From a virus: DNA of 64,000 nt. Made by a program: the position numbers and the translations under genes. Positions 524 to 53,781 of the stretch are shown here, piece after piece. The stretch covers positions 186,001 through 250,000 of IMG/VR virus record IMGVR_UViG_3300012988_000016; one strand, 5' to 3'. The notes below the pieces were generated by a model. The model was not told the origin of the DNA. It saw only the letters and a list, made by a program, of their open reading frames with translations, and did not search any database. The first letter of the stretch is position 1. Each line of letters starts with the position of its first letter.

Positions 524-1245
524 TGTACCTGCGCAAGATCTACATCCGACACAGAGAACAATATCCAGACAGCCCCAATACTTTTGCGGCTTTGGACGGA
601 TTTACCCAACTAGGTGTTGAGGTACAGCCCTATTACGGTTTTGACGATATCCAAGCCTTGACCGATCTGGGCCCAGAGGTTGGGGTGACGGGCTTCGTAG
701 GAGATACGTGGGCCGCTCTAAAGGTCTTGGGTAAGCCGATGCCCATCCCCATCGATTACCCAGAGCAATTGACTCCTTGGTTGGGCCGTAAGATCTGGCG
801 AAGCACCCTGGGGGAGATACGGCGTTCGGTCGAGCAAGTGTTCATCAAGCCAGTGTCGGAAAAGCTCTTCACTGGCTTCATCTGGCGTTCCAATATGGGT
901 GACCAGATACGTATGGCGACTTGTGAGGACGATACCGAGATTTGGGTCTCGGAACCGATCTCCCTGGAGTCTGAGTACCGCTGTTTTATCCAAGATGGGG
1001 ATATTGTGGGAGTCCGCCACTACAAGGGAGATTGGGGCAAGGCGATCGATCGTCGAACCGTAGAAGCAGCGGTCTCAGCCTACAAGGACTGTCCCAGAGC
1101 ATTCTCACTAGATTTCGGGGTGACCAGCACAGGCCAAACTGTGTTGGTGGAAGTCAATGACGGGTATGCATTGGGGTCCTATGGACTCCCTTCCATCATC
1201 TACGCGAAGTTTATCGAAGCTCGCTGGGAGGAACTGACCCGATGA
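523..1245 (+). CDS. ATP-grasp protein, R2K-like clade
   Basis: 240 residues. The C-terminal half has ATP-grasp features: an FIKP strand (about residue 108), a YRCFI segment and the metal-binding end SLDFGVTSTGQTVLVEVND. ATP-grasp enzymes ligate a carboxylate to an amine or thiol through an acyl-phosphate. The substrate here is unknown. It resembles the R2K clade seen in phages and conflict loci. It overlaps coaD by 1 nt and the next gene by 4 nt, so the three are probably cotranslated. A second protein of the same general type lies at 6689-7495. Confidence 0.75.
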   Translation: MYLRKIYIRHREQYPDSPNTFAALDGFTQLGVEVQPYYGFDDIQALTDLGPEVGVTGFVGDTWAALKVLGKPMPIPIDYPEQLTPWLGRKIWRSTLGEIRRSVEQVFIKPVSEKLFTGFIWRSNMGDQIRMATCEDDTEIWVSEPISLESEYRCFIQDGDIVGVRHYKGDWGKAIDRRTVEAAVSAYKDCPRAFSLDFGVTSTGQTVLVEVNDGYALGSYGLPSIIYAKFIEARWEELTR

Positions 1246-1499
1246 ATGCCCTAACGATCGCCAGAGAAGAAGCGGCCAAGCTAGAGGTTAAGTTGGACGA
1301 CGCCACTCTGGAGTCCCTCGTCTGGGAGCAAACTGGATGGCCCGGCTTCTTTGCTGGTGACGATCCAGAGGCTGAGTTTCGGAGACAACTCCAAGCCGCC
1401 ATGCAGCCTATCGTCACAGCCCAGCGGTCTAGAGATCGACGAGAACTCCAGGAGAAACTCCCAACCAAATGGGAACTCCTCCTGGAGGACGATCAGTAA
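1242..1499 (+). CDS. Small protein with C-terminal tag
   Basis: 85 residues, no recognised domain. It begins at an ATGA overlap with the ATP-grasp gene. It is mostly helical and charged, and ends in LPTKWELLLEDDQ, which fits the C-terminal peptide shared by about fifteen proteins in this window. Its end converges on the gene at 1493-1762. Confidence 0.75.
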   Translation: MNALTIAREEAAKLEVKLDDATLESLVWEQTGWPGFFAGDDPEAEFRRQLQAAMQPIVTAQRSRDRRELQEKLPTKWELLLEDDQ

Positions 1500-1762
1500 C
1501 CTCGCATCATCTGCCACAAACGCATCACATCGCTGGCTCCGCCAAAGCCTTCGACAATACCTGAGCCCGCTTCCCTGAAGGCTTCGATGGTGGCCCACGC
1601 CACCTCGGCCGCACTAACGGCTTGTCGCTTGCGCCATTCGTCCTCGGTGCCAGCCTCGATGATGTGAAGCGGCACGCCGCCTGGCTTGAATAGAGGAGCC
1701 ACCTCAGCGGCAAAGACGGCCGCGTAGATGACTTGCTCTCCTTGGGTCAAGCGTTCAATCAT
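1493..1762 (-). CDS. Hypothetical protein
   Basis: 89 residues, helical and alanine-rich, no known family. The ATG at 1762 overlaps the stop of the upstream 395-residue gene as TGATG, which favours this start over the GTG two codons earlier. Third gene of a minus-strand operon behind an XRE regulator. Confidence 0.7.
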   Translation of the reverse strand: MIERLTQGEQVIYAAVFAAEVAPLFKPGGVPLHIIEAGTEDEWRKRQAVSAAEVAWATIEAFREAGSGIVEGFGGASDVMRLWQMMRGY

Positions 1763-2949
1763 CACCACTTGCCTTCGCGAATGGTGTTTGGACCAACTAG
1801 CTTGACTTGATGAGGAGTGCCCACCATGTGAGTAACCTGGTCCAACTTGTTGAGATCGATCGACTCGTTCTCGGGCAAGAGGTTAAGCCCCTTCTGCATC
1901 CCATACTTGAGCATCGACATCACTCCTTTGAGCTTGTCGGTGCCTTGCAGGGCATGCAGGTCGTCCTTGTAGGTGTCAAACCAGGGCAACCCATAGCGAG
2001 CGTAATCGGCCGCAGTTTGGGGCGGGCTGGGCGGGTCCTGTTGGGTGACCGCTTTCCACACCAGGCTGTTGGCCAGGTGGATGAAGACCCGTTGGGTATT
2101 TTGAGTGTCCCAGTCGGAGATATCGAAAGGATCGGCGTAGATCTCCTGCTTCATCTGACCGCCAGCTGCCATCCCCATATCGGCAGCTGCCGCACCAAAC
2201 ACCTCTTCGTCAGAATCACAAACTGAACGGATCGCATCCGCACCCTTCGTTTCTGATCGACTCCGCATACCACGGCGTCTAGTGTCCGCATTGGTGGCAG
2301 ACATTGGACGAATGCCGCCAGATGACTTGCCTTCCCACATATCACCCCCCAAACTGGTGCTTCGCATGATTCTAGGTTGAGGCACCACACGAGGGAAGCG
2401 GCGGTTGAATACCTCCGACTTCATAGGTATCACCTCAATCTGGATACCGCCAAACTCGGCCTCTCCAGTGATTTGCTCCTCAGCCGTGACACCCAAGCCA
2501 AGTGGGGCGGCCACGAACTGTCGAACCAACCCTTTCTCCACCACGTAGCCGTCGATCCACGGCTGTTTGGGGACCGTCACATAGTCCTTTGGCGTCAAAC
2601 CAGCTGACCACCTCTCACCCGTCACCGCACTCACCTTACCGGCTGCGATCTTGACCGCGAAGGGGTAGACGCCTTGATATTGGACCTGATGGCCGCTGAA
2701 GCGCATCCACAGTGCTTCTGATTGGTATAGGGCCGTCATGATGCCGCCATGTTCCAACCACTTGGCCGGCACCCGATCCTTGAAGTCGTCTACCCGCCTG
2801 AGTGGGAAATGACCCAAATCAGGAGGTAGTGGATAGGCCTTTCCGTCGTCTGGGATCCGAAGCGTACGCTGAAGGCTGATCTTCATCTTCGCCTCCGGAT
2901 GCACGTCTGGAAGGCTGAATGAAAGTACGTTGTTGTATAGGTCTAACAT
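1762..2949 (-). CDS. Conserved hypothetical protein, 395 aa
   Basis: No function assigned. The N-terminal part has a conserved-looking block (PLPPDLGHFPLRRVDDF, about residues 40-56) followed by segments such as GGIMTALYQSEALWMRFSG. I recall similar sequences from bacterial chromosomes without a known role. The middle (about 200-250) is Ser/Arg-rich and low complexity, and probably disordered. A clear Shine-Dalgarno (AAGGAG, 7 nt before ATG) precedes it, unlike the many GGTGTA-preceded genes here. It lies 15 nt downstream of the XRE regulator and is probably cotranscribed with it. Confidence 0.75.
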   Translation of the reverse strand: MLDLYNNVLSFSLPDVHPEAKMKISLQRTLRIPDDGKAYPLPPDLGHFPLRRVDDFKDRVPAKWLEHGGIMTALYQSEALWMRFSGHQVQYQGVYPFAVKIAAGKVSAVTGERWSAGLTPKDYVTVPKQPWIDGYVVEKGLVRQFVAAPLGLGVTAEEQITGEAEFGGIQIEVIPMKSEVFNRRFPRVVPQPRIMRSTSLGGDMWEGKSSGGIRPMSATNADTRRRGMRSRSETKGADAIRSVCDSDEEVFGAAAADMGMAAGGQMKQEIYADPFDISDWDTQNTQRVFIHLANSLVWKAVTQQDPPSPPQTAADYARYGLPWFDTYKDDLHALQGTDKLKGVMSMLKYGMQKGLNLLPENESIDLNKLDQVTHMVGTPHQVKLVGPNTIREGKW

Positions 2950-2964
2950 ATCGTTTTCTCCTTG

Positions 2965-3315: not shown

Positions 3316-3323
3316 TGTAGCAT

Positions 3324-3336: not shown

Positions 3337-3348
3337 ATCTACAGAGGG

Positions 3349-3809: not shown

Positions 3810-3810
3810 G

Positions 3811-11181: not shown

Positions 11182-11507
11182 TGGCCTCCTTCAAGCTGCT
11201 TCCTCTCAACAAGCAAGAACCTTTGACGGAATATCTAAAAGCGGCATTCCCGATCATTAGACGCGAGCCGATCCCTAATCCGTACGCAGGTGAACGATGC
11301 GTATACCAAGAGGGTATCTGCATGCGTGAGGCTTGTGGACAACCTAGATGGCAGGACCCTGAAAAGGGTGATTCGGTACTCTGCAGACGCCATACAGAGG
11401 AGGTGTATCGAGGCGAGGCCAAGGCTCCTCCTCTGCGGCGAGGAATTGACTACCAGGCGGTAGGACGTAAGACATTCCTTGTCTTTGACCTGCCAGACGA
11501 TACCTGA
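11181..11507 (+). CDS. Hypothetical protein with Cys cluster
   Basis: 108 residues from the TGATG-coupled ATG. Four cysteines (RCVYQEGICMREACG...LCRRH) with a His could bind one zinc. No family recognised. Confidence 0.65.
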   Translation: MASFKLLPLNKQEPLTEYLKAAFPIIRREPIPNPYAGERCVYQEGICMREACGQPRWQDPEKGDSVLCRRHTEEVYRGEAKAPPLRRGIDYQAVGRKTFLVFDLPDDT

Positions 11508-14633: not shown

Positions 14634-15119
14634 GTGTCGTCACCTGAGCTATCGTCTGAGCAGATCAAAGAGTTAAGGCAGACGATCCGAACCGTAGATA
14701 GAAGCTCAGACTACAGATGTCCTGATTGCGGAGGAAAAGTCTCCCTCCTGGCAGGCAAGTTCGGGCTGTTCTATCGCTGTTTGGACGGTTGGATCCAGTG
14801 GCGGAAAGCTAATTTTGACTTAACGGTTGAGACTTGCTCTGGCAAATTCAGCGCCAACAATGACGGAACCCCATTGGGGATCCCGGGCAATCGGGCCACC
14901 CGACAAGCCAGACAACGGATCCATCGTTTGCTGGAACGTCATCCTGATTTGTTTGATTGGCAGACCCTTGAGGCTGAACTGAGTGAAAAATTTACGGAAG
15001 CAGGCCGAACGTTCGGCCGTCTCTCGTGTATGTCGTTGGAGGACTGTCAACTAGTGCTTCGCCACCTCGAATACCGACCTACCATCTGGGAATTGCTGAG
15101 CGATTCTAGCAACCTATAG
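14634..15119 (+). CDS. DUF3268-like zinc-finger protein with C-terminal tag
   Basis: 161 residues. A topoisomerase-type zinc finger (RCPDCGGK...YRCLDGW) is followed by GIPGNRATRQARQRIHRLL, resembling the DUF3268 plan. It ends in YRPTIWELLSDSSNL, a clear copy of the shared C-terminal peptide. Start GTG. Confidence 0.72.
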   Translation: MSSPELSSEQIKELRQTIRTVDRSSDYRCPDCGGKVSLLAGKFGLFYRCLDGWIQWRKANFDLTVETCSGKFSANNDGTPLGIPGNRATRQARQRIHRLLERHPDLFDWQTLEAELSEKFTEAGRTFGRLSCMSLEDCQLVLRHLEYRPTIWELLSDSSNL

Positions 15120-15948: not shown

Positions 15949-16797
15949 ATGACCGAAACTATTGAAGACCTCCACCGACCCATGACAGATCCGGCCATCC
16001 AACGGCTGAATCATCTCTACGGGACCGCCCACGAACGAGATCAAGCCCGCTTCATTCTAGGGCTTTTGACCATAATCCGTCTTTCCAACGGAAGCCAACG
16101 TTCTAGGAAAGATTTGACGGCCCCCTACACAAAGACCGGCAAGGAGGGGAAGGCGGTCAAAAAAGAGGCGATGGCCAAGGAATGGCACCGGCAATTCGTC
16201 GACCATTTGATTCAGCAAGGATTCGTCCAGCAAGTCAACCAGTCGAGGAACATCAGCTTCCAAGCGGTCGATCAAAAGGCTCAAAAAGACCTGTTCGACA
16301 TGGTGGAGGATGCGTTGTTTGAGGATGGCCAGCAGCTCAAGAAGCTGTTGTGGCCCTCCGACCATCTGGACCTGACCGAAGCCTTGCAGGAAGAGCATGA
16401 GGCTGAGACCAAGGGGGACGATCCGCCTCCTGTCGATGAGGGGTTGGATGCCGTCAAAGAGGTGGCGAGTCAGCTCAAGTTGGTGGCCGACCATCTGGGG
16501 CAGGTCTATCAAGGATTGACGACCCTGGACAAGCGGTTGGATGAAAAACTCACCGATCTGGAGACCCGATTGGGGCATCTCTCCGGTCTGGAGAAGAGGA
16601 TCGAGACCTCATTCAATCGGATAATTGAGGCAATCGAGAAAGATGAGCGCGTTCAGCTCAGCGTCTTGGCTGACAAGATGATTGAGATCGGTAGCCGTCG
16701 CACCTCCTTGTCCAATCAGCTGGAATCGGAAGGGCGTCGTCTCGACAAGACGTTGGAAGAAATCAAGACCTTGACGGCCAAAACGAGCAAGTCGTGA
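15949..16797 (+). CDS. Coiled-coil protein
   Basis: 282 residues. The N-terminal 110 residues are a globular helical domain. The C-terminal half is predicted coiled coil (heptad-like VKEVASQLKLVADHLGQV, then LEKRIETSFNRIIEAIEK). It is probably oligomeric. Couples to the next gene by a GTGA overlap, which suggests the two proteins interact. Confidence 0.7.
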   Translation: MTETIEDLHRPMTDPAIQRLNHLYGTAHERDQARFILGLLTIIRLSNGSQRSRKDLTAPYTKTGKEGKAVKKEAMAKEWHRQFVDHLIQQGFVQQVNQSRNISFQAVDQKAQKDLFDMVEDALFEDGQQLKKLLWPSDHLDLTEALQEEHEAETKGDDPPPVDEGLDAVKEVASQLKLVADHLGQVYQGLTTLDKRLDEKLTDLETRLGHLSGLEKRIETSFNRIIEAIEKDERVQLSVLADKMIEIGSRRTSLSNQLESEGRRLDKTLEEIKTLTAKTSKS

Positions 16798-17852
16798 AAA
16801 GAGACAAGACACCTCTTCATACTGAGGAAGCCTACCAGGCGGCTATCTTTGCCGCGCAGGTGGATGCGATCGATCTGATCGAGGAATACAAGAAAAATCC
16901 TCCCAAGACCTCTAGGGATAAAGCTCTGAGCGAAAACGCCATTTGGCTCAAGGTTGACCCCAAATATCGCAACATCATCATGGATATGAAGGGGTACGAG
17001 GCCAAGTGGTTGGCCTATGTGTTGGCCGATGGTGGGCCCTGCAGTCCTTTCAAAGCTCGTGCTCGTGCTCTAAAGGAGCTGCGCAAGGGTTTCAACGTGG
17101 TGCCTGCCTGGGAGGCCCTGGATGAAGGCATCAACCCAGAACATGTGTACGAAGCTTTCACCTCTGCCAGTACAGCCGCCAAAAATGCGGCGGATGGGGA
17201 AGCCCATCAACGATTCGAACAGAGTCTCACTGAGAGTATCGTCAAACCCATTCGAGACAGGAGACCGGTCAGTCCAAAGTCGATTTCACGTCGAGGGGGG
17301 AGAAGTAAGTTGAGTAGACCACCTAGGCAGCGCCCAGCACCTGAACAAACCGAAACTGCGATCGTAGCAGAACCTCCTCGATCCAGATGGGCCAAACCCT
17401 TGGATGAGATGACGACCGAATCCAAGGCATTGTGGGTAACCATCACCATGACGCTGGACAAGGAGATCCCAGCTTTCGTCGCCAGCCGTCTCAATGGTTT
17501 GACTGAACCTAGTCAGATCGAAGACATCTCTGACGAATTCAAGCTTGAGGTCAACGCTTGCTATCAGAATCTATTGGGCAAGATTCGCAATATCCGTGCC
17601 CGTGGGACCTCGAAAGAGATCCTGAATATCAAGCAAAGCGAGATCATTGAAGCGGCGGAGATCCTAGGATTCAAAGCTCCCTCTCGAAGTGCCAAACATT
17701 ACCGAACTTGGCGGCCGGATTTGGAATTGGCCAAAAAGGCCTATCTGAAACTTGCCTCACGCTTTCACCCTGACAAGAACCCCGATGATGATCGAAGCGC
17801 CCAACGCTTCGATTCGATCCAAAAAGCCTGGAACCTGCTGAAGAGTCTCTAA
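16794..17852 (+). CDS. C-terminal J-domain protein
   Basis: 352 residues. A J domain occupies about the last 45 residues (AYLKLASRFHPDKNPDD, with the HPD at residues 325-327), followed by an FDSIQKAWNLL helix. J domains recruit and activate Hsp70 (DnaK). The long unassigned N-terminus probably binds the client. It could recruit host DnaK for assembly or replication steps. Start GTG. Confidence 0.85.
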   Translation: MKRDKTPLHTEEAYQAAIFAAQVDAIDLIEEYKKNPPKTSRDKALSENAIWLKVDPKYRNIIMDMKGYEAKWLAYVLADGGPCSPFKARARALKELRKGFNVVPAWEALDEGINPEHVYEAFTSASTAAKNAADGEAHQRFEQSLTESIVKPIRDRRPVSPKSISRRGGRSKLSRPPRQRPAPEQTETAIVAEPPRSRWAKPLDEMTTESKALWVTITMTLDKEIPAFVASRLNGLTEPSQIEDISDEFKLEVNACYQNLLGKIRNIRARGTSKEILNIKQSEIIEAAEILGFKAPSRSAKHYRTWRPDLELAKKAYLKLASRFHPDKNPDDDRSAQRFDSIQKAWNLLKSL

Positions 17853-22635: not shown

Positions 22636-22740
22636 TTTGCGAGAGCCTCTATCGAGAGAGGCCTCATCTGCTCTTTGACAACCGAACCGCTCGCAAACCG
22701 TCGTGCAAGTACTCAATATTAATGTGCTTGCACGAATAGG
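22636..22740 (+). promoter_or_regulatory. Putative CRISPR leader
   Basis: 105 bp between cas9 and the first repeat. It holds a 6-bp hairpin (GCCTCT 22645-22650 with AGAGGC 22657-22662), and a 9-bp inverted repeat TCGTGCAAG/CTTGCACGA (22701-22709, 22727-22735) around an AT-rich core ending 5 bp before the array. The perfect repeats are at this end, as expected of the leader side. Confidence 0.55.
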
Positions 22741-23803: not shown

Positions 23804-24421
23804 ATGCCTCCGCCCGACCCTCCTGCTTCAAGCCTACAGATAGACCTGAATGGCCTGATCACACCCTTCGGCGGGGGGCTGACCGGTCTCCCGCCTGGAG
23901 AGTTGTGGAACCTGTCGGGCGTCGGTAGTTTGGTCTATTCGGGGGAGTTCACCCAGCAGGTGTTCGATAGAATGATCGCCAGATGTGTTGGTGGGGTCAG
24001 GCCTGCCTTTGCGATCATGAATCGAACCGCCTACAACGAGTGTGTGATGAATGGCGGGTGTCAGAACACCATCACTCCGATGCCCTCAATCGAAGGCACC
24101 CACACTACTTCAGTCAGCTACGCGGGGATCCGTCTCTATGTCAACAATGAGACGTCCAATGTATCGATATTGCTGAGCAGTGACTTTGTTCAGCTGAGTA
24201 TCGCCCAAAGGATCGACCCGCCCTTCACCTCTGTCCCGATCACTGGATTCACCCGTTTACAATTGGAGTGGATGATACCATCCGGGGCTAGAGACGGCTT
24301 CGATGATAGTGTAGCGTTCCTCCATTCTCCTCAGGATTTCACCAAAATCATGTCTGAGCCGGTCCGACAGAGCAGGCTACAGATCCTGCGTGACGGTGAT
24401 GGGTTGAAAGCACAGGAATGA
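23804..24421 (+). CDS. Tagged unknown protein, paralogue 1
   Basis: 205 residues. The core (SGEFTQQVFDRMI, then RTAYNECV, then IRLYVNN and SIAQRIDPPF) is shared with the next gene, so the two are paralogues of an unknown family. It ends VRQSRLQILRDGDGLKAQE, the shared C-terminal peptide. The ATG is fixed by the GGTGTA element; the longer reading would run through the terminal repeat. Confidence 0.72.
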   Translation: MPPPDPPASSLQIDLNGLITPFGGGLTGLPPGELWNLSGVGSLVYSGEFTQQVFDRMIARCVGGVRPAFAIMNRTAYNECVMNGGCQNTITPMPSIEGTHTTSVSYAGIRLYVNNETSNVSILLSSDFVQLSIAQRIDPPFTSVPITGFTRLQLEWMIPSGARDGFDDSVAFLHSPQDFTKIMSEPVRQSRLQILRDGDGLKAQE

Positions 24422-24424: not shown

Positions 24425-24955
24425 ATGCCCCCTTCTAGACCCACCATATCTCTAGCGGCAGATCGAGACGGCAACCTACTGATCACATCTATCAAGTACT
24501 TGAGAGAAGAACATCTGTGGCATTTGGGCGGCTTCACCCGACAAGTGTTGGAACAGCTGATCGATCGTAGCATCGATATCCCAGCATTTGTTTGGATCAC
24601 TCCAGAAGCATACAACGAATTAGCCAGTGATTCGGGGACGAATCCAAGCACTTACCGAGGTATGCCTATCCATGTCAACAGTGCGATAGATGAAGACAAC
24701 GTTACCGCCGTGTTGATGTCGACAGCCTACTGTCCGTTGGCTGTCGCCCACAGAAGAGATCCCCCACCTATTAGGCAATTCAATTTTCTCAGATCCAGTC
24801 TAGAGTTGGGGAGACCGCCATCGGTTCAAGAGGATTTGTTGAACCTACAAGCAGAAGCGACGCACTCGGAAGCGGTTGTCAAGCAAGCATTTGCTGAAGT
24901 GGTGCGTCAGAGCCGTCTACAGATCTTGCGTGATGGGGACGGTCTGGATGGCTAA
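24425..24955 (+). CDS. Tagged unknown protein, paralogue 2
   Basis: 176 residues, paralogue of the preceding gene (GGFTRQVLEQLIDR, PEAYNEL, MPIHVNS, AVAHRRDPPP). It ends VRQSRLQILRDGDGLDG, nearly identical to the tail of paralogue 1 although the bodies have diverged. It overlaps the next gene by 8 nt. Confidence 0.72.
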   Translation: MPPSRPTISLAADRDGNLLITSIKYLREEHLWHLGGFTRQVLEQLIDRSIDIPAFVWITPEAYNELASDSGTNPSTYRGMPIHVNSAIDEDNVTAVLMSTAYCPLAVAHRRDPPPIRQFNFLRSSLELGRPPSVQEDLLNLQAEATHSEAVVKQAFAEVVRQSRLQILRDGDGLDG

Positions 24956-25595
24956 GCCCCACAAGCATTTCCGCCAACATCCAAAGCGTCTGGTGGGCAC
25001 GTTCTGGGTCAATGAGCGAGTACTAAAGGTCATCAAGATTTCCAAGCAGCGGGCTTGGTGTGTGGTGGTGCCTGGGCTGGAGATCATGCGGATAGATATC
25101 CAGGATCTGTTGCTCCAGTCGACCTACGTGGGACGAGAGATCCCCGATCGCAGTCGGAACAAGTATGTGGTGGCAAAGAATGGGGGATCCATTTCCGAAA
25201 TCTTGGGGATTACCGGTAATGAAGTTACTTTATCGGTTGTGCGTGGAGACTTATCTCAATTGAGCCCGCAGAACCTATGGGAGGGTTACCACATCTACCC
25301 TGTAGTAGGCTTCTTCGATGAATTCCGACATCCCACCGAAGCCGAGATACAAGATGGAGAAACTGTTTACCAACGATGGATGTTGTGGATACGAGCTGGT
25401 ATTCTAGAGCATGAGACGGAAATCAGAGAATTCTGTGACACCAGCTGGACAGCTCCTGAGGAACCCCCTGATGATAAGCCGGAACGAGCCCCAATCGTCG
25501 AAGTCCCAATTTCCCCCATTAGCCGTCAAAGCAGCTATCAGATCCTTCAGCAAGGGGACGGCCTAGACCCTACCAAGAAAGCCTCCGATGACTAA
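24948..25595 (+). CDS. Tagged unknown protein of the PxxLVxxxW family
   Basis: 215 residues. The N-terminus HPKRLVGTFWV...VIKISKQRAW matches three other window proteins (31225, 31805, 32448). A Pro/Glu-rich linker (EEPPDDKPERAP) leads to SRQSSYQILQQGDG, the shared C-terminal peptide. No known family. Confidence 0.72.
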   Translation: MAKPHKHFRQHPKRLVGTFWVNERVLKVIKISKQRAWCVVVPGLEIMRIDIQDLLLQSTYVGREIPDRSRNKYVVAKNGGSISEILGITGNEVTLSVVRGDLSQLSPQNLWEGYHIYPVVGFFDEFRHPTEAEIQDGETVYQRWMLWIRAGILEHETEIREFCDTSWTAPEEPPDDKPERAPIVEVPISPISRQSSYQILQQGDGLDPTKKASDD

Positions 25596-28532: not shown

Positions 28533-29176
28533 CGATCAAATGGTCTGAACTTTCGGTCACCGAGCTGACTCACGCCCTGAGAACGTTGCCTCGCATGATG
28601 CTATACAGCTGGATCGTGCGAGAAGAGGGATGGACCAGAGCCTCGGTTTGGGAGTATGCTGAAGAAGGTCAGCGCCCGCCACTCATCATCAAGGACGGTG
28701 GATTATTTAGGTCCTATTGGGACAAGGATGGTCTAAGGTTCGAGTCTCTCAATGAAGCACAGGCCCATTGGGATGCTGAATGGATAGAAATTGGATGGCA
28801 GCTGATCGACTCAGAGGACGGATCTTCCACCCCGTCTCCGCCGCCATCGCTTGATTGGGCTAGTCTGAGCCCTATCGAGCTAGCAGGAGCCATCCGGACC
28901 ATCCCACGCCTGATTGCCTATGCCTGGACGGTGGACCGACAGGGGATGTGGGTCAGGTGGGACGTCGAGGAATACGGATGTGCTCAGGCGGCCTGTATCG
29001 TGGAAGAGGACGGCCTCTTCAGGGGGCCTAGCCGTGACCATCTGACGGGCCTCGAATATCCCAAATTCGAGACGTTGGAGGCCTGCAAGCAAGCTTGCGA
29101 CAGAGAATTGGTCAGCCGAGGCTGGCTATTGAACGATTTGGAAGCGAGGCCGCCCGATGCCCAAACTGACGATTGA
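28529..29176 (+). CDS. Protein with internal tandem duplication
   Basis: 215 residues made of two copies of an unknown domain of about 95 residues: WSELSVTELTHALRTLPRMM...FRSYWDKDGL...GWQLID, then WASLSPIELAGAIRTIPRLI...FRGPSRDHL...GWLLND. A Ser/Pro linker joins them. The ATGA-coupled start removes the longer reading. Confidence 0.72.
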   Translation: MTIKWSELSVTELTHALRTLPRMMLYSWIVREEGWTRASVWEYAEEGQRPPLIIKDGGLFRSYWDKDGLRFESLNEAQAHWDAEWIEIGWQLIDSEDGSSTPSPPPSLDWASLSPIELAGAIRTIPRLIAYAWTVDRQGMWVRWDVEEYGCAQAACIVEEDGLFRGPSRDHLTGLEYPKFETLEACKQACDRELVSRGWLLNDLEARPPDAQTDD

Positions 29177-29519
29177 GATCGACTACCCGCCGAATCTTTC
29201 TGCACATAACGCTGATGTGGTGGTTCAATCGCCCCTCTTCCGAGCTTACGTGAACGATGAGCTGTTGGCCTGTATCAAAAGCCTTCAGCTCAGTGTGGGG
29301 CCTTTGTCAAACGTCCCGACTGTGATGGTTTCCACCACTCATGAGGATTCGTTGGAAGGCGTCAGTGAAGATCTAAAGGCTCGCCTTGGCCGCTACAGGG
29401 AGCTGTTGGAAAGCCTGGGTCCTTATGTCATGCTGGCCTACGACGGCTTGACTCCTAGCGCTCCGCTAGAACCAGTGGAGCGTCGATCGGCCTGGCAGCT
29501 GATCAAGGATGGGGACTAA
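29157..29519 (+). CDS. Tagged small protein
   Basis: 120 residues; a beta-rich start (KLTIEIDYPP) and a helical middle. It ends ERRSAWQLIKDGD, the shared C-terminal peptide exactly at the terminus. The codons for the tag lie in a perfect hairpin (29499-29530). Overlaps the preceding gene by 20 nt. Confidence 0.75.
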   Translation: MPKLTIEIDYPPNLSAHNADVVVQSPLFRAYVNDELLACIKSLQLSVGPLSNVPTVMVSTTHEDSLEGVSEDLKARLGRYRELLESLGPYVMLAYDGLTPSAPLEPVERRSAWQLIKDGD

Positions 29520-30377: not shown

Positions 30378-31004
30378 TTACACCGGATCAGATCCTAGGT
30401 GTTGCCAGAGGGTTGGACGGTCGATTGGTGCCGAGGGAGCGGCCGGTACGACCGCCCTAGTGGGGGCAACAGGGTATGCTTCGTCGTCAGCATCCGTCGC
30501 CATAGAGTCATTCCTGTGGTCATCCATAGGGATAGGGCTACCGCCCACATGTTGGATAAACGCCTGCATAAGGTCGTCTCGAAGACGCTCCTCAACAGCG
30601 AGCGACGGATCGGTCCAGCCATGTGTGAGGATCGGGTTACGGTTACGGATCCTTCGTCTCAACGCCATTTCAAAGTACTGGACCAATAATGAGGGGTCAT
30701 CGACGGGCCTTTGGAACAGCCTACCCCCATCTCTGAACTGATAACGCCACATACCATCATCACCCAGAAACACCCCCACCTCCCTTTCATCAGAGGAATT
30801 TTGGACCGTTATCCGAAACCTAATCTGACACCCATTATTGACTATGTGGAATCCGTTTCCCTCCACATTCTCAAGAGGGACCCCCATCCTGACCACTACT
30901 TCTTGCAGCAACGCTTCCACCTGTGGTCGGCACCTAGCTTCAAGCTCGGTTGAGCGTTCCATACGGAATTTGGCCAATTCATCCAGATCGGTAAAAATAC
31001 TCAT
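30378..31004 (-). CDS. Tagged unknown protein
   Basis: 208 residues. An N-terminal alpha/beta domain with WRYQFRDGGRLFQ is followed by an Ala/Pro linker (PTRAVVPAAPSAP), ending DRPTLWQHLGSDPV, the shared C-terminal peptide. The ATG is coupled to the upstream stop (TGATG). Confidence 0.72.
   Translation of the reverse strand: MSIFTDLDELAKFRMERSTELEARCRPQVEALLQEVVVRMGVPLENVEGNGFHIVNNGCQIRFRITVQNSSDEREVGVFLGDDGMWRYQFRDGGRLFQRPVDDPSLLVQYFEMALRRRIRNRNPILTHGWTDPSLAVEERLRDDLMQAFIQHVGGSPIPMDDHRNDSMATDADDEAYPVAPTRAVVPAAPSAPIDRPTLWQHLGSDPV
30379..30384 (-). promoter_or_regulatory. GGTGTA promoter element overlapping a stop codon
   Basis: Includes the GTG TAA end of the gene at 30378-31004 and ends 9 nt before ATG 30369. 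Confidence 0.6.
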
Positions 31005-31228
31005 CAGATCTCCAGGTCCGCTGGGCGTTGTCGATACACCAACTGGCAGGATTCACAATGCCAGCCAAGGATGTGGTGCTGTTGTGGGGGCCCTCCATAT
31101 TTGGGACCTAGCGGGCCATGCCGGATCCCTATCGTGGCCACCACTTTTCCGCTACAGAGGCGGCACACGCCTGGTTTGGGGGCGTACTGGCCACGTAGGC
31201 GACGTCGGTCCTCCATATCGTTCTTCAT
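31004..31228 (-). CDS. Small zinc-ribbon protein
   Basis: 74 residues. One zinc ribbon is formed by CRLCSGK and CESCQLV, with a basic N-terminus. Linked by overlapping stop/start codons on both sides, inside the tagged-protein operon. Confidence 0.7.
   Translation of the reverse strand: MKNDMEDRRRLRGQYAPKPGVCRLCSGKVVATIGIRHGPLGPKYGGPPQQHHILGWHCESCQLVYRQRPADLEI
31035..31040 (-). promoter_or_regulatory. GGTGTA element inside the zinc-ribbon gene
   Basis: Ends 30 nt before ATG 31004, longer than usual; could be an internal promoter for the downstream tagged gene. Confidence 0.4.
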
Positions 31229-31818
31229 GGGATTGGAGTCTCAGGAGCGATTAATTGCCAGAGGGATGTCCGTGAGGGCGTTTCTGTTTGTGCCTCAGGT
31301 GCGACTTCAGGTTGAAGATCTGCCACCGCTACTTCAAACTGTTGTTCTTCCAACAGTTCTTCAGGAGTGGCACGGCGGTAAGTTTGCAAGAATTCAGAGA
31401 TTGGCGGTCGATCTACCGACATTTGCTCAACGCCTTGTCGTTGTCTGGACTCTAGACTGATACTGCCGATTGCGACAAAGTTGATTCTCCACACGCCATT
31501 GAGGGAGGGGTCTTCTGACGGCACCCTCCGCACGACAGGCATTCTAGGTCTCAACCAAGCCATTTCTTCAAAAGTACCCAAATACTTGGCACCATACAAC
31601 AAAGCTTCAATTGGCTCCCACCAATGATTGGGGGGATGACGGGACTGCGGTTCCAGTGCCTCGTAACGAATGACATGCACCTCACGTTCTCGGACATCCA
31701 ATATCTGGACATTATCCCACAGAAATGCAGCCTGATTTTGCCTCAACATGGCCCAAATCGTATCCACCAACGTTTGTGGGTCATCCGAGAAGCCTTGAAG
31801 ACGTTCATTCAGTGGCAT
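31225..31818 (-). CDS. Tagged unknown protein of the PxxLVxxxW family
   Basis: 197 residues. It shares MPL...DPQTLVDTIW, then VQILDVREREVHV and HWWEPIEALLYG with the gene at 31805-32410 (clear paralogues), and more weakly with 24948 and 32448. A Pro/Glu linker ends in SRTSLWQLIAPETPIP. Overlaps both neighbours. Confidence 0.75.
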   Translation of the reverse strand: MPLNERLQGFSDDPQTLVDTIWAMLRQNQAAFLWDNVQILDVREREVHVIRYEALEPQSRHPPNHWWEPIEALLYGAKYLGTFEEMAWLRPRMPVVRRVPSEDPSLNGVWRINFVAIGSISLESRQRQGVEQMSVDRPPISEFLQTYRRATPEELLEEQQFEVAVADLQPEVAPEAQTETPSRTSLWQLIAPETPIP

Positions 31819-32410
31819 GGGGTTCCTTCAGCAAATCCCATGCAGATATTCGTGAGATGGGTGATGATGGTTCAAGGCTTTCTGGAGGGATTGGTCCTGA
31901 ATCTGGAGAGGGCAAGGGCCGTGCCAAAAATTGGTTTAGGTGCTCTCGGTAAGCGAGGTGTTCCTCTCTAGTAGCCGGCCTATATGTCGTCAGAAATAGA
32001 TGCGTTCGACAATTTGCGCCCAACAAATAGTCTCTACCAGATGGTTTGTCTCTAAACCATACTGAATTTCCGTGGACACCTTCGATCTGCCAGGTTCGTC
32101 GAAGTTCATCCTCAGTAGCTACTATAGTAGTGACCATAGCGCCTGAAATAACCCACCCTGCTTCCTGATGGGTTCCTATATAGACACCACCCCATACGAT
32201 CGATTCGACTACAACCCACCAATGAGTAGGCTCAGTACGAAAATTCCAATGGACAGCCGTCAACACCACATGAGCTCGACGCTCTCTAACGTCCACTATC
32301 TTGACATATTCGGTATTCAGGCCGTCGCCCACATTGACCACCCAATAGGTATCGACCAATGTCTGAGGAGTGTTCAAGAATTGGTGACGTTGCTCTTCAC
32401 TCAGGGGCAT
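31805..32410 (-). CDS. Tagged unknown protein of the PxxLVxxxW family
   Basis: 201 residues, closest paralogue of the 31225 gene (MPLSEEQ, TPQTLVDTYWVV, VKIVDVRERRAHVV, HWWVVVESIVWGG). After a Pro/Ser linker it ends SRISAWDLLKEPHATE. The start at 32410 matches the paralogue and lies 11 nt after the GGTGTA element. The longer reading antisense to the next gene is an artefact. Confidence 0.75.
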   Translation of the reverse strand: MPLSEEQRHQFLNTPQTLVDTYWVVNVGDGLNTEYVKIVDVRERRAHVVLTAVHWNFRTEPTHWWVVVESIVWGGVYIGTHQEAGWVISGAMVTTIVATEDELRRTWQIEGVHGNSVWFRDKPSGRDYLLGANCRTHLFLTTYRPATREEHLAYREHLNQFLARPLPSPDSGPIPPESLEPSSPISRISAWDLLKEPHATE

Positions 32411-32421
32411 GAACCAACATC

Positions 32422-32437
32422 TACACCGCTCGGTGTA
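32422..32437. promoter_or_regulatory. Divergent GGTGTA promoter pair
   Basis: 32422-32427 (minus, 11 nt before ATG 32410) and 32432-32437 (plus, 10 nt before ATG 32448), only 4 bp apart as a palindrome-like ACACCGCTCGGTGT. It drives two divergent members of the same tagged family. Confidence 0.65.
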
Positions 32438-32447
32438 GGGAAGCTGG

Positions 32448-33173
32448 ATGAAGGTCCGTTCCAATCTGTCGATTGACGAACAGGTAGAGCTACAGTTGCG
32501 AGCTAGCCCAAAGAGGCTGGTGGGGTCTTGGTGGGTGGTGTCGGGCACCTTGAGGAAGGTGGTACATCTAACTAAGAAGCGAGTCATCATGGTGATGGCC
32601 AGCAATATAGAGGCTGAACCTTTGAAGATCCCGCTGCATCAGCTCTTCACAGATGAATGTATCTTCCTAGGATATGGTTTCATCCGTCCGCACCAGTTCG
32701 TGACCGATGTCAGAAATGGCTGGATGTTTCGAACCGATAGATACGATCCCGAGACCATTTGGCTAGATCTGGTTAGCAGCAACGCCACCTCAACTTTGCT
32801 CCAGCAGTCTAGCTACGATCTGCCAGGGGTCTATTGGGTACGTATCATGGATTTCGTGCAGTTTTTTAGAACCGTGCCAAACCAACTGGATGGGGTCAAC
32901 CAATGGGAAAACATCCGTGCGGCATACGCGGACCGATTAGGGAACTTGGATCAGCTATATAGCCAGGATCGAGATGCGACGACATCCCAGCGGACTGTCA
33001 CCTATTATGCGTATTCAATCCCTATTCAGGTGTCGCCACCATTGACGTCTGTGCCGACGCCCGCTACCCCTACAGAACCAGCCTCAGAACTGGTCAGACC
33101 TACTTTTGCGGATCATCTGTTGGGGACGGAGAGTGCGTGGTTGGTTCCTCATCAGGATGGATCAAACCCATAG
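32448..33173 (+). CDS. Tagged unknown protein of the PxxLVxxxW family
   Basis: 241 residues. N-terminus SPKRLVGSWWVV...KVVHLTKKR is closest to the 24948 protein. A Thr/Pro linker leads to VRPTFADHLLGTE, but here about 15 further residues follow, so the tag is near-terminal. Confidence 0.72.
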   Translation: MKVRSNLSIDEQVELQLRASPKRLVGSWWVVSGTLRKVVHLTKKRVIMVMASNIEAEPLKIPLHQLFTDECIFLGYGFIRPHQFVTDVRNGWMFRTDRYDPETIWLDLVSSNATSTLLQQSSYDLPGVYWVRIMDFVQFFRTVPNQLDGVNQWENIRAAYADRLGNLDQLYSQDRDATTSQRTVTYYAYSIPIQVSPPLTSVPTPATPTEPASELVRPTFADHLLGTESAWLVPHQDGSNP

Positions 33174-39113: not shown

Positions 39114-39587
39114 ATGAAGCACGCAATCGAAACCCTCCGCCGTGAGGCTATGGCGCTCTACAGGGCGTTGCCTGGCGAGGGTTGGGCAGACACTAGAGAG
39201 CTACGAGAGTCGATGCTGCAGTCGATTGCTCAGCACTACGAGGCCGCCACCATCCTGGAATCTAAAGTCATAGCTTCGAGCCAGGAAACATTGACGCTAG
39301 ATATAGGTACCTTCTTAGGACTGAAGCGGCGAGATCCCTACCAAGACGTTGAGGCCTACTACGAGGGGCAGGACGCCTTGGCTAGACACAAAGATCCTGA
39401 GGTGACAGGTCCGATATGCAACTGTGGGGAATATTTCCGCCAAGATAGGCGCCACATGCCTGACTGTCCGATGCTACCTCGGACTCCTGACGGCCGCATC
39501 AACAACTGTTCGCTGGCCAACCACGACCTTGAAGCCAACTGTCAGATGTGTGATGGAAAGTGCCCTGATCGGGCTAATTTGCCATGA
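39114..39587 (+). CDS. Hypothetical protein with Cys/His C-terminus
   Basis: 157 residues. Helical N-terminus; the C-terminal third has ICNCGEYFRQDRRHMPDCP and NCQMCDGKCPD, suggesting two zinc sites. Stop overlaps the next start (ATGA). Confidence 0.7.
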   Translation: MKHAIETLRREAMALYRALPGEGWADTRELRESMLQSIAQHYEAATILESKVIASSQETLTLDIGTFLGLKRRDPYQDVEAYYEGQDALARHKDPEVTGPICNCGEYFRQDRRHMPDCPMLPRTPDGRINNCSLANHDLEANCQMCDGKCPDRANLP

Positions 39588-39835
39588 ATGCCGTTTTGGA
39601 GCAACTCATAGGAGAGCGGGACCCAATGGAAAACGTCTACGTTTGCTACAACGTTTTCGGCATGAGTAGAAGAGATGGCCCCTATACGTGGGAGCAAGCG
39701 CTGCGGGAGATGCAGGACATCTCCACCTACCTGGGTGTGTCGGATTGTACCTTCTTGATCGAAGGTCCTCAGGTGAAGCAAAATACCATCCACATTCCAA
39801 CCTTTGCCCAGCGGTTGGACGAACCGTTTATCTGA
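39584..39835 (+). CDS. Small protein with C-terminal tag
   Basis: 83 residues. Beta-strand YVCYNVFGMS then a helix. It ends IHIPTFAQRLDEPFI, which fits the shared peptide with Ala in place of the aromatic residue. Confidence 0.7.
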   Translation: MNAVLEQLIGERDPMENVYVCYNVFGMSRRDGPYTWEQALREMQDISTYLGVSDCTFLIEGPQVKQNTIHIPTFAQRLDEPFI

Positions 39836-43703: not shown

Positions 43704-44189
43704 ATGTCCCACATCCATCCTCTGCTGATCATCTATGTTGTTCTGGCGTTGGGGGCGGTATCTTGCTTCTATGCTGCAGACAGACTGTTCTTCCACGGCT
43801 TCTTTGGACCCAAGGTGAAGGTCCCTAAGAATGTGGGTCGGAAGCACTACAGCGACCTACGTATCGTCTTTCCAAGAGCGGTGTTAGACGCCAATACATT
43901 CACCCAGATGCGTCTCAGACGGGCCCGAGCAGATGTCAGAGCTCCTTCGGAAGCTCAAGAACAATGGCGACTACAGTACTCTACCGTTCCGACACAATTT
44001 GCAGTGCGGACTGGACAAGAAATTCATGACGCCATCCAGACTATGTTGGCGGCTGAGTTGGGTACGGATCAACATAGTCTGCAGACCAACCCTTCGAATC
44101 CAGAAGTGAAGGTAAAAGAACCTCCCGAACCTCCCAAATCCAAGCGTTCGGCCGACCACTTGTTGGACAATGATTGGAAGATCAAGTGA
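43704..44189 (+). CDS. Membrane-anchored protein with C-terminal tag
   Basis: 161 residues. One N-terminal transmembrane helix (about 6-27) and a long polar region; a Pro/Glu linker (KEPPEPPKSKR) leads to SKRSADHLLDNDWKIK. If the helix inserts N-out, the tag is cytosolic. Confidence 0.72.
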   Translation: MSHIHPLLIIYVVLALGAVSCFYAADRLFFHGFFGPKVKVPKNVGRKHYSDLRIVFPRAVLDANTFTQMRLRRARADVRAPSEAQEQWRLQYSTVPTQFAVRTGQEIHDAIQTMLAAELGTDQHSLQTNPSNPEVKVKEPPEPPKSKRSADHLLDNDWKIK

Positions 44190-44677
44190 CACAAGAGAAG
44201 GTTGAGCGGCCCACTTACTTTAGCCTAGAGGTATCGACTGAGGTGGCGGCAGAGGTGTGGCGTTCCCTGAAGGATTGCGTTGATGTTAGTGAAAAAGAGC
44301 AATTCCTCGATAGTTTGGCCCACATTCTCAGCTCTAAGCTGGAAGACGCTTTCGAGATTGGGGTCCTGTTGGCTAGACACAATTTCTATGTTGACGAAAA
44401 CCTGATCGTGGGCTTGGTCAATGCCGACATTTACCACACTAGGAAGAGAGTACTGTCGTGCATGTTGAGCTGGTGGGTCCACTACCACGCTCCAAAGCCT
44501 ACCCTATCGGTAGGGACATGCGTGATCTACAAGGGAGATGTCAGGGTTGTGGATCGCTACGACCTAATTCGAAATCAGAACCAAATCGTATCGATCGACT
44601 ATGATCGAGCCGTCTATGTGTGTAGTGACGGGCGTCAACTGCTTTGGGAAGACACCAGTTATCTGGTGGTTGGCTGA
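44186..44677 (+). CDS. Hypothetical protein
   Basis: 163 residues. Helical N-terminal domain and a beta-rich C-terminal part (GTCVIYKGDVRVVDRY). GTG start overlaps the upstream stop (GTGA). Confidence 0.65.
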   Translation: MTQEKVERPTYFSLEVSTEVAAEVWRSLKDCVDVSEKEQFLDSLAHILSSKLEDAFEIGVLLARHNFYVDENLIVGLVNADIYHTRKRVLSCMLSWWVHYHAPKPTLSVGTCVIYKGDVRVVDRYDLIRNQNQIVSIDYDRAVYVCSDGRQLLWEDTSYLVVG

Positions 44678-45048
44678 CCGATAGGGTCTTCCGTCAGATG
44701 ATCCCAAGCAGACCTAGGCTCAGTTGTTGGTCCGGCGATTGGAACCAATCTTGAGACCTGTAGTTGTGGGGGAGGCACGAATGGCATCCACATCCCTCTA
44801 GAGTTATCGCAGCTCAACGGTCTGAGAGGGGAGGTTGGACTGTAGATAGGTACGACTCGGCCAAAGCTAACAGCTATTGCGGTAGCACTAACCTGCATAT
44901 TGGTGAAAGAGGGGTAGGACCCCTCTTGATGGATCTGAGCCAAATGGTCCGTCAGGCTCAGAAAGGCGGCCGTCAGCCTAGTGACACTGTCGGTCAACTC
45001 CGACACCTGGGCTTCCAATACCCTGATCCGTTCTTCTTCGTGGGGCAT
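44659..45048 (-). CDS. Coiled-coil protein with C-terminal tag
   Basis: 129 residues. Coiled coil (EEERIRVLEAQVSELTDSV) then a Ser/Pro linker, ending EPRSAWDHLTEDPIGQPTTR. The TGATG-coupled start at 45048 is chosen over longer readings. Convergent overlap of 19 nt with the upstream plus gene. Confidence 0.72.
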   Translation of the reverse strand: MPHEEERIRVLEAQVSELTDSVTRLTAAFLSLTDHLAQIHQEGSYPSFTNMQVSATAIAVSFGRVVPIYSPTSPLRPLSCDNSRGMWMPFVPPPQLQVSRLVPIAGPTTEPRSAWDHLTEDPIGQPTTR

Positions 45049-45566
45049 CAGTCGTCCAAGAAACGGTCCAGCAGTTGCTTGAAAATAGACGGTTTGGAAG
45101 CTAGGCGCTTCTGTTCTTTGGCTTCCCTTAGGCGAACCCGCTTCTCGGTCTTCTCTATCTGTTGCTTGACTGCTGAGGGGTTGACGTGAGGGTCCACTCG
45201 CCAGAGTTTCCAAGCTGATTCGATCTGCACCAATACAAAGCTATCGGTCTGCATTTGACTCAGCTTCTTGAGACTCGTATGATGCAATGTTTGCCCTTGT
45301 CGAGGGTGTGGGCTATCCACCAATCGACGCTTGTACCAATAACTAGAGGAAGCGTCTAATGCGATGCTGAATTGATAGCTAGGCTCGGGTCTAAACCTCT
45401 TCCGGAAGTTAGGCCTATAGGGTTCTATCACCAAAAAGCCTTTTTCGAAGCTATCGATCAAGTGTCGAGGGATCTCCAAAACCAGCGTCTCCGAATCACG
45501 CTCAATAACGGTTCGAGGAGCTCCATATTCTGGCGGAGCTTTGGAGAGTGGGATCAGGTAGGACAT
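45048..45566 (-). CDS. Unknown protein with C-terminal tag
   Basis: 172 residues. Beta-rich start and a long basic helix (EKTEKRVRLREAKEQKR). It ends SKPSIFKQLLDRFLDD, the shared peptide at the terminus. Overlaps the upstream 58-residue gene. Confidence 0.7.
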   Translation of the reverse strand: MSYLIPLSKAPPEYGAPRTVIERDSETLVLEIPRHLIDSFEKGFLVIEPYRPNFRKRFRPEPSYQFSIALDASSSYWYKRRLVDSPHPRQGQTLHHTSLKKLSQMQTDSFVLVQIESAWKLWRVDPHVNPSAVKQQIEKTEKRVRLREAKEQKRLASKPSIFKQLLDRFLDD

Positions 45567-48123: not shown

Positions 48124-49116
48124 TCAGAATGCTGAGCTCTGGATTACCCAGAAATCGCTAGCCAGTTTGGTGTTTTTGAGATAATCGTAACTCACCCAGT
48201 AGTAGCCAGCCAAGCCCCAAGCTGATCCCCAGCTGTTACGAACCAAGAATGCGCCCTTGGAAGCTGAATTGAACGGGTTAACCATTTGGTCGTCATACCC
48301 GACCAAGCATTGAGCGTGACCGCCCTGCAGAGTTTCTGACTTGCCTGGGATGTTCAGGAAGCCGTTCTTGGCCATATCAGCCGACATGAAGTAGCTGTAG
48401 ACCTGGAAGCCGTAGCCAACCAAATAGCCGGCAGCTAGTGTGGCTTTCATGGTCGCCAAGTCACCATCTGCGATCGAATGATACGATGTGACCTTGTGCG
48501 TCAGAGCTGTGGTCCACAAGGCAGCTGGCGGGTTGGTGGCGAACTTCGAGATATTGTACGGCCATGAGGCTTCATCCACCACACCGTATTGAGCCGCAGC
48601 TTTGACGGTATCGCGGATGGTAGCTCCGGAATCCTCAGAGACGGTCCCCTCGATCTTCCGCGTGGCGTAGTACTCAAACAACCGGCTTACTTGCACCAAC
48701 TTGGCTGGCGTCGGAGTTGGGGAGGGTGATGGGGTTGGAGCTGGAGTGGGAGCTGAGGTGGTCTTGATGGTAGTGGTGAAGGTAATGGTGCCATCAGCCG
48801 CTACTGAGACGTTCGAAACACTGACATTGGCTGTGGCGGCACCCAACTGAGCCAACGAAGTTTTGGCCAACCCACGGTTCTCATTGGCTTCCACCATACC
48901 AGCCAACATGTTGGCCGTACAGCTGCCTAGGTCGCCCTGATCTTCAACTGGACTACAGATGGAACGCAAGTCTACCGAGGCGGGAGCGGCACCAAACACT
49001 CCTGAGGGTAGTTTGAGGCGATAGTCTTCATCTCGGGTGTCGGTAGGCTGTTTCTTCCAACCACCTAGGTGAACCTGGCGTGGCGAACCATTCGCATGAT
49101 GAGCTGTCTTGAGCAT
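48124..49116 (-). CDS. Papain-family (C1) cysteine protease
   Basis: 330 residues. Catalytic Cys in VEDQGDLGSCTANMLAG (about residue 66), His in GGHAQCLVGYDD and Asn in VRNSWGSAWG. An inserted segment (about 92-136) with Thr/Val strands and a PTPAPTPSPSPTPTP linker splits the domain. No signal peptide, so it acts in the cytosol or is packaged or released at lysis. Its ribosome site lies in a perfect hairpin, pointing to translational control. Confidence 0.9.
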   Translation of the reverse strand: MLKTAHHANGSPRQVHLGGWKKQPTDTRDEDYRLKLPSGVFGAAPASVDLRSICSPVEDQGDLGSCTANMLAGMVEANENRGLAKTSLAQLGAATANVSVSNVSVAADGTITFTTTIKTTSAPTPAPTPSPSPTPTPAKLVQVSRLFEYYATRKIEGTVSEDSGATIRDTVKAAAQYGVVDEASWPYNISKFATNPPAALWTTALTHKVTSYHSIADGDLATMKATLAAGYLVGYGFQVYSYFMSADMAKNGFLNIPGKSETLQGGHAQCLVGYDDQMVNPFNSASKGAFLVRNSWGSAWGLAGYYWVSYDYLKNTKLASDFWVIQSSAF

Positions 49117-50932: not shown

Positions 50933-50994
50933 GTACTACCTAGCGGCCCAAATGGCGAAAGCTTTAGAGGCTGTCGGAAAAAATGACCATGGTC

Positions 50995-51000
50995 GGTGTA
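50995..51000 (+). promoter_or_regulatory. GGTGTA promoter element
   Basis: GGTGTAAT, 13 nt before ATG 51014, heading the HU-led block of plus-strand genes. Confidence 0.6.
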
Positions 51001-51013
51001 ATGGTACAACATC

Positions 51014-52106: not shown

Positions 52107-52345
52107 AATCCTTCACGCCAGGACAATTGGTCCAAGTGCAGCGTCAGCCAGCCGCCAAGTGGGAACCGGCTACCTATCTAAGACCACACGAGGATTGGCC
52201 TGGTAGCCATTTGGTTGATCTGCCTGATGGGGCGGAACGGTGTATTGATCGAATGTTGGGTGGCGATTGTGACCCCAATCACCCCCGAGCCTGTAAAGTC
52301 AAAGTGCTGATGGTACCTGCCCGACGAATCCGTAATCCCACATGA
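52103..52345 (+). CDS. Small hypothetical protein
   Basis: 80 residues. Starts KSFTPGQLVQVQRQP, resembling a small barrel. ATGA coupling on both sides. Confidence 0.62.
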   Translation: MKSFTPGQLVQVQRQPAAKWEPATYLRPHEDWPGSHLVDLPDGAERCIDRMLGGDCDPNHPRACKVKVLMVPARRIRNPT

Positions 52346-53013: not shown

Positions 53014-53293
53014 CATCTTGGCCGAGCTGTCTTTCCTCAAACCGGAACCAGGTGTGAAGAAGGTAACCGAGTACGGTACTGAGGAGTTGCGTCAATTCGC
53101 CCGTGGATTGTTGGTTAGACAGTGTCCAGAATGCGGGTCAAAAGCGTCAATTCCTCATTACCAGAACGGACGCAACACTTGTTTGGATTGTGATACCATC
53201 TATCGCCCCGAAGATGTGGTGGTGATTGCCTTGCTGAAAGCTTTCCAGTCCGGCGCTGAAGATGAGGCGGAACGGCTCAATCCGTCGGCTTAA
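52985..53293 (+). CDS. Zinc-ribbon protein
   Basis: 102 residues. Zinc ribbon RQCPECGSK...TCLDCDT, then a helix. Overlaps the preceding gene by 29 nt. Confidence 0.65.
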   Translation: MSRSYQNQTNILAELSFLKPEPGVKKVTEYGTEELRQFARGLLVRQCPECGSKASIPHYQNGRNTCLDCDTIYRPEDVVVIALLKAFQSGAEDEAERLNPSA

Positions 53294-53486
53294 GTTCGCA
53301 GGCCTCTAAGATCTCGGCCTTTTCTTCCACCACAGACACCACGTGAGCGTATATCTGCTGGGTGTAACAAAGGCCGCTGTCATCCATCACCAGGCCTAGG
53401 TGGATTGCAGTTTTGCTGCAGATGGGGCAGCAGACCAACGGCATCCCTTCAAACGTCTCACCAGGCTCAAGGTCTCGTAGATCCAT
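53277..53486 (-). CDS. Small zinc-binding-like protein
   Basis: 69 residues. CCPICSK with later Cys (LCYTQQ, EACEL). Convergent overlap of 17 nt. Confidence 0.6.
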   Translation of the reverse strand: MDLRDLEPGETFEGMPLVCCPICSKTAIHLGLVMDDSGLCYTQQIYAHVVSVVEEKAEILEACELKPTD

Positions 53487-53526
53487 CCCCCATCATATCA
53501 CGGTTTTTAGATACTGGAAATCCTAG

Positions 53527-53781
53527 ATGTCAGCCCCAACTAATCTGCGGAACCTAAAGGTAGGAGATCAGGTGGTGGTGACTTGTCCAGAATTTGAGAA
53601 GAGTGAGTTCTCTGTTCTGGGAGAAATAGTCTCGGTCCACCGCCTAAATAGCGGCTACAAGGTTCGTCCTATGAGTCATCAGAATATCAAGTTTTCGTGG
53701 GGGTACTCAGAACTGAGACTCCCCACCAGAGAAGAGGTCTACCGTCCTAGCTTCTCTGAACGCCTATTCGAGAGTTTCTGA
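53527..53781 (+). CDS. Barrel-like protein with C-terminal tag
   Basis: 84 residues. KVGDQVVVTCPEFEKSEF and GYKVRPMSHQN look like a KOW/SH3-type barrel. It ends YRPSFSERLFESF, which fits the shared peptide. Confidence 0.68.
   Translation: MSAPTNLRNLKVGDQVVVTCPEFEKSEFSVLGEIVSVHRLNSGYKVRPMSHQNIKFSWGYSELRLPTREEVYRPSFSERLFESF

Follow-up and report, generated by a model that had tools for sequence, protein, structure and literature searches.

Why should many unlike proteins of a single phage end in the same short peptide? The question is raised by a window of 64,000 nucleotides (bases 186001-250000 of the 308,895-bp phage record IMGVR_UViG_3300012988_000016 of IMG/VR, named G000 here), in which a first-pass annotation had picked out fifteen C-terminal tails of similar sequence and read them as a docking tag. 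All 15 tails are encoded where they had been placed, and nine more were found elsewhere in the record, giving 24 tagged proteins in G000. The tail phenomenon is real and larger than first noted, and no account of it was found in the open-licence papers searched. Coordinates below are window positions; tagged proteins outside the window are located by their G000 genome positions.

C-terminal placement of the tail

Genes were predicted with a simple codon-usage caller, after which the C-termini were inspected, and further tails were collected with a leave-one-out matrix. The major capsid gene of G000 (G000:6317-7198) encodes a product that is 82.6% identical to the capsid protein of the uncultured phage LR745208 (485 kb); the identity falls to 37-47% for the major head proteins of Tunturi_5, an Acidobacteriota phage, and of Bacillus phage G. 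A group of IMG/VR contigs, including records of 312-529 kb, encodes capsid proteins 91-100% identical to that of G000 and is referred to as the clade; it includes the relatives G007 (512 kb) and G009 (407 kb). Neither an isolate nor a proteome of a clade member was found.

A profile built from G009 only was applied to G000: among 391 called C-termini, 7 reached its threshold, as did a single one among 2173 internal segments and none among 330 N-termini. This comparison of C-terminal and internal match rates had been set beforehand as the refuting test, and C-termini matched far more often (Fisher p = 1.3e-5). The count is conservative because the caller misses some tagged ORFs. In a six-frame profile search of 16 held-out clade records, 27 of the 30 retrieved matches lay no more than 12 residues from a stop codon, at least two pairs among the 30 being identical copies from overlapping records. 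The G007 pattern TRF.R occurred at 28 C-termini and in 1 of 4889 internal segments. By seedless pattern counting the G007 pattern ranked top, as did that of G009 with a reduced alphabet, and the looser dialect of G000 was not significant.

The motif core ends 2-16 residues before the C-terminus. The linker ahead of it contains 14.6% Pro and 13.2% Glu, compared with 5.1% and 6.1%, which agrees with the Pro/Glu-rich linker described earlier.

Phage-specific dialects in related phages

Each phage carries its own form of the peptide. In G000 the dialect is R-x-[ST]-x-W-[QED]-x-L-L. In G007, about 64 proteins have the tail [RPYH]-PTRFERIL-x-[DE] or, at the very C-terminus, PTRFERE[DP]VI, and about 30 proteins of G009 carry [RK]-[KTV]-[ST]-[VIAL]-[WFY]-[DE]-H-[LI]-[LM]-x-[ED], which also has the short form KSVW[DE]H[LI][LM]-x-E. 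When 19 further records were searched for tails in six frames, 15 of the 16 clade records gave matches, and LR745208, Tunturi_5 and phage G gave none.

The tails are kept in relatives even where an orthologous body has diverged, against the second refuting condition set beforehand, that of bodies conserved in relatives without their tails. A beta-rich tagged protein (G000:123009-123512) is conserved in four phages at 27-58% identity and ends in QQSVYDQLMDD in G000, MSVYDRLM in G005, NRFSRILLDDDD in G007 and KTVFDHLLKDDEDT in G009, so that each copy bears the tail type of its own phage. A structure model of this protein gave no convincing match in the PDB. Because each phage puts its own version of the same peptide on unrelated proteins, one common docking partner is suggested, and the simplest reading of the dialects would be one partner per phage, changing along with the tail and presumably reading all tails of that phage.

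Selection on the peptide and modularity of the bodies

Synonymous-codon entropy at each motif position was near the expectation from genome usage, falling modestly short of it at a single Thr and a single Arg position. Where two tails shared an identical 7-mer peptide, their coding sequences had 77% of nucleotides in common. Since the choice of synonymous codons in the motif is about as free as in the genome at large, it is the peptide that is under selection, and a DNA-level element was rejected as the cause.

After removal of the tails, the 24, 64 and 34 tagged proteins of G000, G007 and G009 fell into 21, 48 and 30 body clusters, respectively, so that paralogy was rejected as the whole explanation. 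The statement that the tagged proteins are unrelated therefore stands for most of them, but not for 31225, 31805 and one protein outside the window, which are paralogous to one another, nor for the paralogous pair 23804 and 24425. A Pfam scan of the tagged bodies gave a sole match above the cut-off, DUF1643 in G009. The tail is an add-on, because the DUF1643 protein has it in G009 and lacks it in Tunturi_5, and one tagged protein of G007 has an untagged paralogue. The earlier proposal of a shared C-terminal docking peptide is thus borne out at the protein level, on many bodies and in relatives, and the tail is very probably a docking peptide.

Tagged genes of the window

On the forward strand, the tagged ORFs are 1242..1499 (85 aa, tail LPTKWELLLEDDQ), 14634..15119 (161 aa, GTG start, zinc-ribbon-like body, tail RPTIWELLSDSSNL), 29157..29519 (120 aa, tail RRSAWQLIKDGD), 32448..33173 (241 aa, with 16 residues following the motif RPTFADHLL), 43704..44189 (161 aa, N-terminal membrane segment, tail KRSADHLLDNDWKIK) and 53527..53781 (84 aa, tail RPSFSERLFESF, a near-identical tail being present on another protein at genome position 257799(-)). 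Those on the reverse strand are 30378..31004 (208 aa, tail RPTLWQHLGSDPV, 18.2 bits with the G009-only profile), 31225..31818 (197 aa, tail RTSLWQLIAPETPIP), its paralogue 31805..32605 (up to 266 aa, start uncertain, tail RISAWDLLKEPHATE), 44659..45213 (start uncertain, tail PRSAWDHLTEDPIGQPTTR, 17.7 bits with the same profile) and 45048..45566 (172 aa, tail KPSIFKQLLDRFLDD).

Weaker variants, all on the forward strand, are the paralogues 23804..24421 (tail RQSRLQILRDGDGLKAQE) and 24425..24955 (176 aa, tail RQSRLQILRDGDGLDG), together with 24948..25595 (tail RQSSYQILQQGDGLDPTKKASDD) and 39584..39835 (tail IPTFAQRLDEPFI). The first three of these share the motif form RQS-x-[LY]-Q-I-L. Membership is weaker for this trio and for the tails IPTFAQRL and RPSFSERL because of their low foreign-profile scores. 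A capsid-like A-domain suspected by eye in 24425-24955 was not supported on checking, and structure prediction for the paralogue family of the window gave a poor model.

The nine tails outside the window lie at +123512, -133526, +155337, -183184, -250316, -257799, -262889, +285064 and -285061. Profile matches at G000 135056(-) and +203852 were rejected as tags, since they are J-domain helices; by eye, the protein at 16794-17852 ends in a J-domain, and that at G000 135056(-) is a second J-domain protein. A Met-Pro start was found in 8 of 26 tagged proteins in G000, 18 of 64 in G007 and 12 of 34 in G009, two to four times its share among called genes (9%, 12.5% and 9%, respectively).

Genomic location and the phage ClpX

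G000, G007 and G009 have 117 tagged genes, and none of these falls in the structural halves, which hold 386 genes. In the same three phages, a GGTGTA motif 15-19 nt ahead of start codons marks many genes of the accessory region and almost none of the structural region, tagged and untagged genes having it about equally often overall; it is likely to be a clade-specific promoter element of non-structural genes.

A ClpX gene (G000:116077-117318) was picked up by gene-content comparison. Its product scores above both NCBIfam cut-offs (NF003745, 457 bits against 359; TIGR00382, 411 against 371) and aligns over its full length with solved ClpX. The gene was found in 13 clade records (G000, G005, G007, G009, G011-G017, G020 and G026), with an intein-like insert in the Walker A region of the G007 copy (G007:277071-279290(-)). 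It was not found in LR745208, Tunturi_5 or 13 sister-clade records of 167-619 kb, where credible tails were likewise absent; sister phages with closely related capsids have neither tag nor ClpX. In G007 the conserved tagged gene lies 12.8 kb from ClpX; in four other phages the distance is 6.6-6.9 kb.

The ClpX proteins of the clade retain the C4 zinc N-domain, to which adaptors dock, and the [VLIM]GF loop that docks ClpP. The RKH loop, which is needed for ssrA substrates (PMC7112951), has been lost from the members whose region was read and is replaced by other, often Gly-rich sequence; it is kept in phage G. ClpX of jumbo phages, that of phage G included, was already known (PMC7824862). In SspB, a C-terminal peptide binds the zinc domain of ClpX, and binder-linker-XB fusions, XB being the SspB docking peptide, degrade untagged targets in Escherichia coli (PMC12373786).

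Proposed mechanism

In the mechanism considered here, the tail is taken to be a short linear docking peptide, basic-x-[S/T]-x-[W/F]-[D/E/Q]-x-[L/I]-[L/M]-x-[D/E], carried on a flexible Pro/Glu-rich linker, and its [S/T]-x-x-[D/E] pattern is compatible with a helix N-cap. The tails of many unrelated accessory proteins would be read by one partner, differing between phages, and this partner may be the phage's own ClpX, acting through its zinc N-domain. Each tagged protein would serve as an SspB-type adaptor: a target from the host (or the phage) would be held by the variable body, and the tail would dock adaptor and target on phage ClpX, which together with host ClpP would unfold or degrade what is delivered. 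Alternatively, the tagged protein could itself be a client of ClpX.

Phage ClpX is the best named candidate partner, still unproven, and its partnership with tagged proteins in an adaptor role is plausible while falling somewhat short of an even chance. It is more doubtful that the clade runs a targeted-degradation network of its own, in which a loop-altered ClpX would be supplied by dozens of fast-evolving tagged adaptors, each delivering a different host protein to host ClpP.

Several observations weigh against ClpX as the partner. ClpX is only one of 36 genes without a match in LR745208 among the 74 common to G000, G007 and G009, and the co-absence of ClpX and tags amounts essentially to one evolutionary split. 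The ClpX-bearing Pseudomonas phage Paride has no shared tail, so that a replicate of the link was negative. Seven shorter clade records, probably fragments, have tag matches and no ClpX (G018, G019 and G021-G025), and G020 has ClpX and no tag match. The tail has an R-P-x resemblance to XB that falls short of a demonstrated match to the XB consensus, and binding of ClpX by the tail is a proposal. Finally, a ClpP gene was found only in G011 among the clade records searched, and host ClpP is assumed for that reason.

Alternative explanations

The first-pass annotation had placed the destination of the tag in a phage-made compartment, the virion interior or a scaffold. As a capsid cargo tag, the tail would be the C-terminal counterpart of the capsid targeting sequence of T4: by way of the scaffold, accessory proteins would be packed into the virion and later ejected into the next host. 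In T4, variable internal proteins share a short tag (PMC5694885), which sets a precedent, and a capsid link retains some plausibility because two tagged G007 proteins contain capsid-protein segments. The head protease and presumed scaffold, only 46-55% identical between G000 and G007 or G009, could also set the dialects. The capsid protein itself seems too constant to do so, with 92-94% identity of the G000 copy to those of G009 and G007 across their differing dialects. Sister phages with similar capsids have no tags. The tagged genes, moreover, lie outside the structural half, in the region of the promoter-like motif, and the T4 tags are N-terminal, at which end no G000 protein reached the profile threshold. 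The proposed destination was not supported, and we consider it unlikely.

The tail could instead act as a degron or timer, so that phage ClpX and host ClpP would turn over the tagged accessory proteins themselves and limit them to a short early pulse. The same ClpX evidence applies to it, the location of the tagged genes in the GGTGTA region and not the structural region fits it, and an SspB-tail fusion destabilised GFP itself in E. coli (PMC12373786). However, ssrA-type degrons are read at the carboxyl end and the core lies 2-16 residues from it, the RKH loop required for ssrA substrates is missing (PMC7112951), and there is little reason to keep dozens of diverse genes merely for the destruction of their products. 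This role appears improbable.

Another explanation is that the tail gathers accessory factors on a host machine (RNA polymerase, ribosome or membrane scaffold) or on another phage protein, the dialects following the version of the partner. Uniform dialects would be explicable by any single partner, and other clade-restricted conserved genes of unassigned role exist, but no candidate can be named and the sole conserved tagged gene sits in the ClpX gene block; a hub of this kind is also unlikely.

An import or retention signal for a nucleus-like phage compartment would suit the solubility of many tagged proteins and the phage-specific dialects. It is very improbable, given that the tail is missing from DNA polymerase and from other proteins of core replication and that known phage-nucleus import is independent of terminal signals (PMC13282480). 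Chance, hidden paralogy or a translated DNA-level element such as a terminator or ribosome site is hardly credible in view of the foreign-profile enrichment, varied synonymous codons, many body clusters and gain or loss of the tail on DUF1643, even though some tagged proteins are paralogues and the shared tail of phage G sits on one paralogous zinc-ribbon family.

Comparison with known systems

Encapsulin cargo-loading peptides are C-terminal and follow a flexible linker on unrelated cargo, as the tails do; no encapsulin was found here, and the capsid protein, which was the sole HK97-type shell candidate examined, does not track the dialects. Poxvirus ankyrin/PRANC proteins have varied target-binding bodies that end in an F-box-like docking motif for a degradation machine. 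That machine is a eukaryotic ubiquitin ligase, whereas ClpX is proposed here, and the likeness is one of analogy only.

The tagged proteins have the layout of SspB and the CLIPPER degraders, namely a body, a flexible (here Pro/Glu-rich) linker and a short C-terminal peptide with its core near the end, and the same phages encode a zinc-N-domain ClpX; the difference is that one peptide occurs on dozens of different bodies (PMC12373786). The T4 capsid targeting sequence likewise marks several variable phage proteins, unrelated to one another, with a single short tag, but it is N-terminal, is cut off by the prohead protease and occurs on few proteins, whereas the present tail is C-terminal, on up to about 64 proteins, and outside the structural region (PMC5694885). 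SPO1 Gp53 is a phage accessory protein acting in an adaptor-like manner on host ClpC; it is a single protein directed to a host unfoldase, without a shared tag family (PMC6873191).

Phage G, which has ClpX with adjacent ClpP, carries 27 zinc-ribbon paralogues with the common tail YWKENDRYL at 26-33 kb and 354-370 kb. It was rejected as a separate example of unrelated proteins sharing a tag, since all 27 belong to one family, whose expansion had already been noted (PMC7824862).

Neighbouring features

The window also encodes a 1020-aa Cas9 (19573-22635; Pfam HNH_4, RuvC_III and Cas9_a), followed by a CRISPR array (22738-23717) with the 36-nt repeat GTTGTGACCCCTTTTGATCTCTCGATCCATTCTCCC at a spacing of 71-73 nt; degenerate repeat copies extend as far as the tagged ORF 23804..24421, the first of its trio. 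Pfam identified a papain-family protease at 48124-49116 and a phage integrase at 57464-58303. Small accessory ORFs with pieces of the major capsid protein of their own phage occur at 11322-11507, at G007:220848-221597, in a G007 ORF ending at 223754 and in an ORF of W02 ending at 122430(-). The two in G007 are also tagged, and one seems, by eye, to include a piece of a decoration protein. These ORFs are possibly decoys, regulators or recombination remnants.

Implications

Huge phages encode hundreds of small proteins without recognisable function, and the tail groups dozens of them, across phages, into one functional set despite their unlike bodies. The finding matters whichever partner is found, and the identity of the binding partner would reveal the role of the whole set. 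If the partner is phage ClpX, the clade would have a virus-run adaptor system for the selective destruction of bacterial proteins, which would be a natural source of modular degraders, and the tagged adaptors would be the phage counterpart of the F-box adaptor sets of poxviruses.

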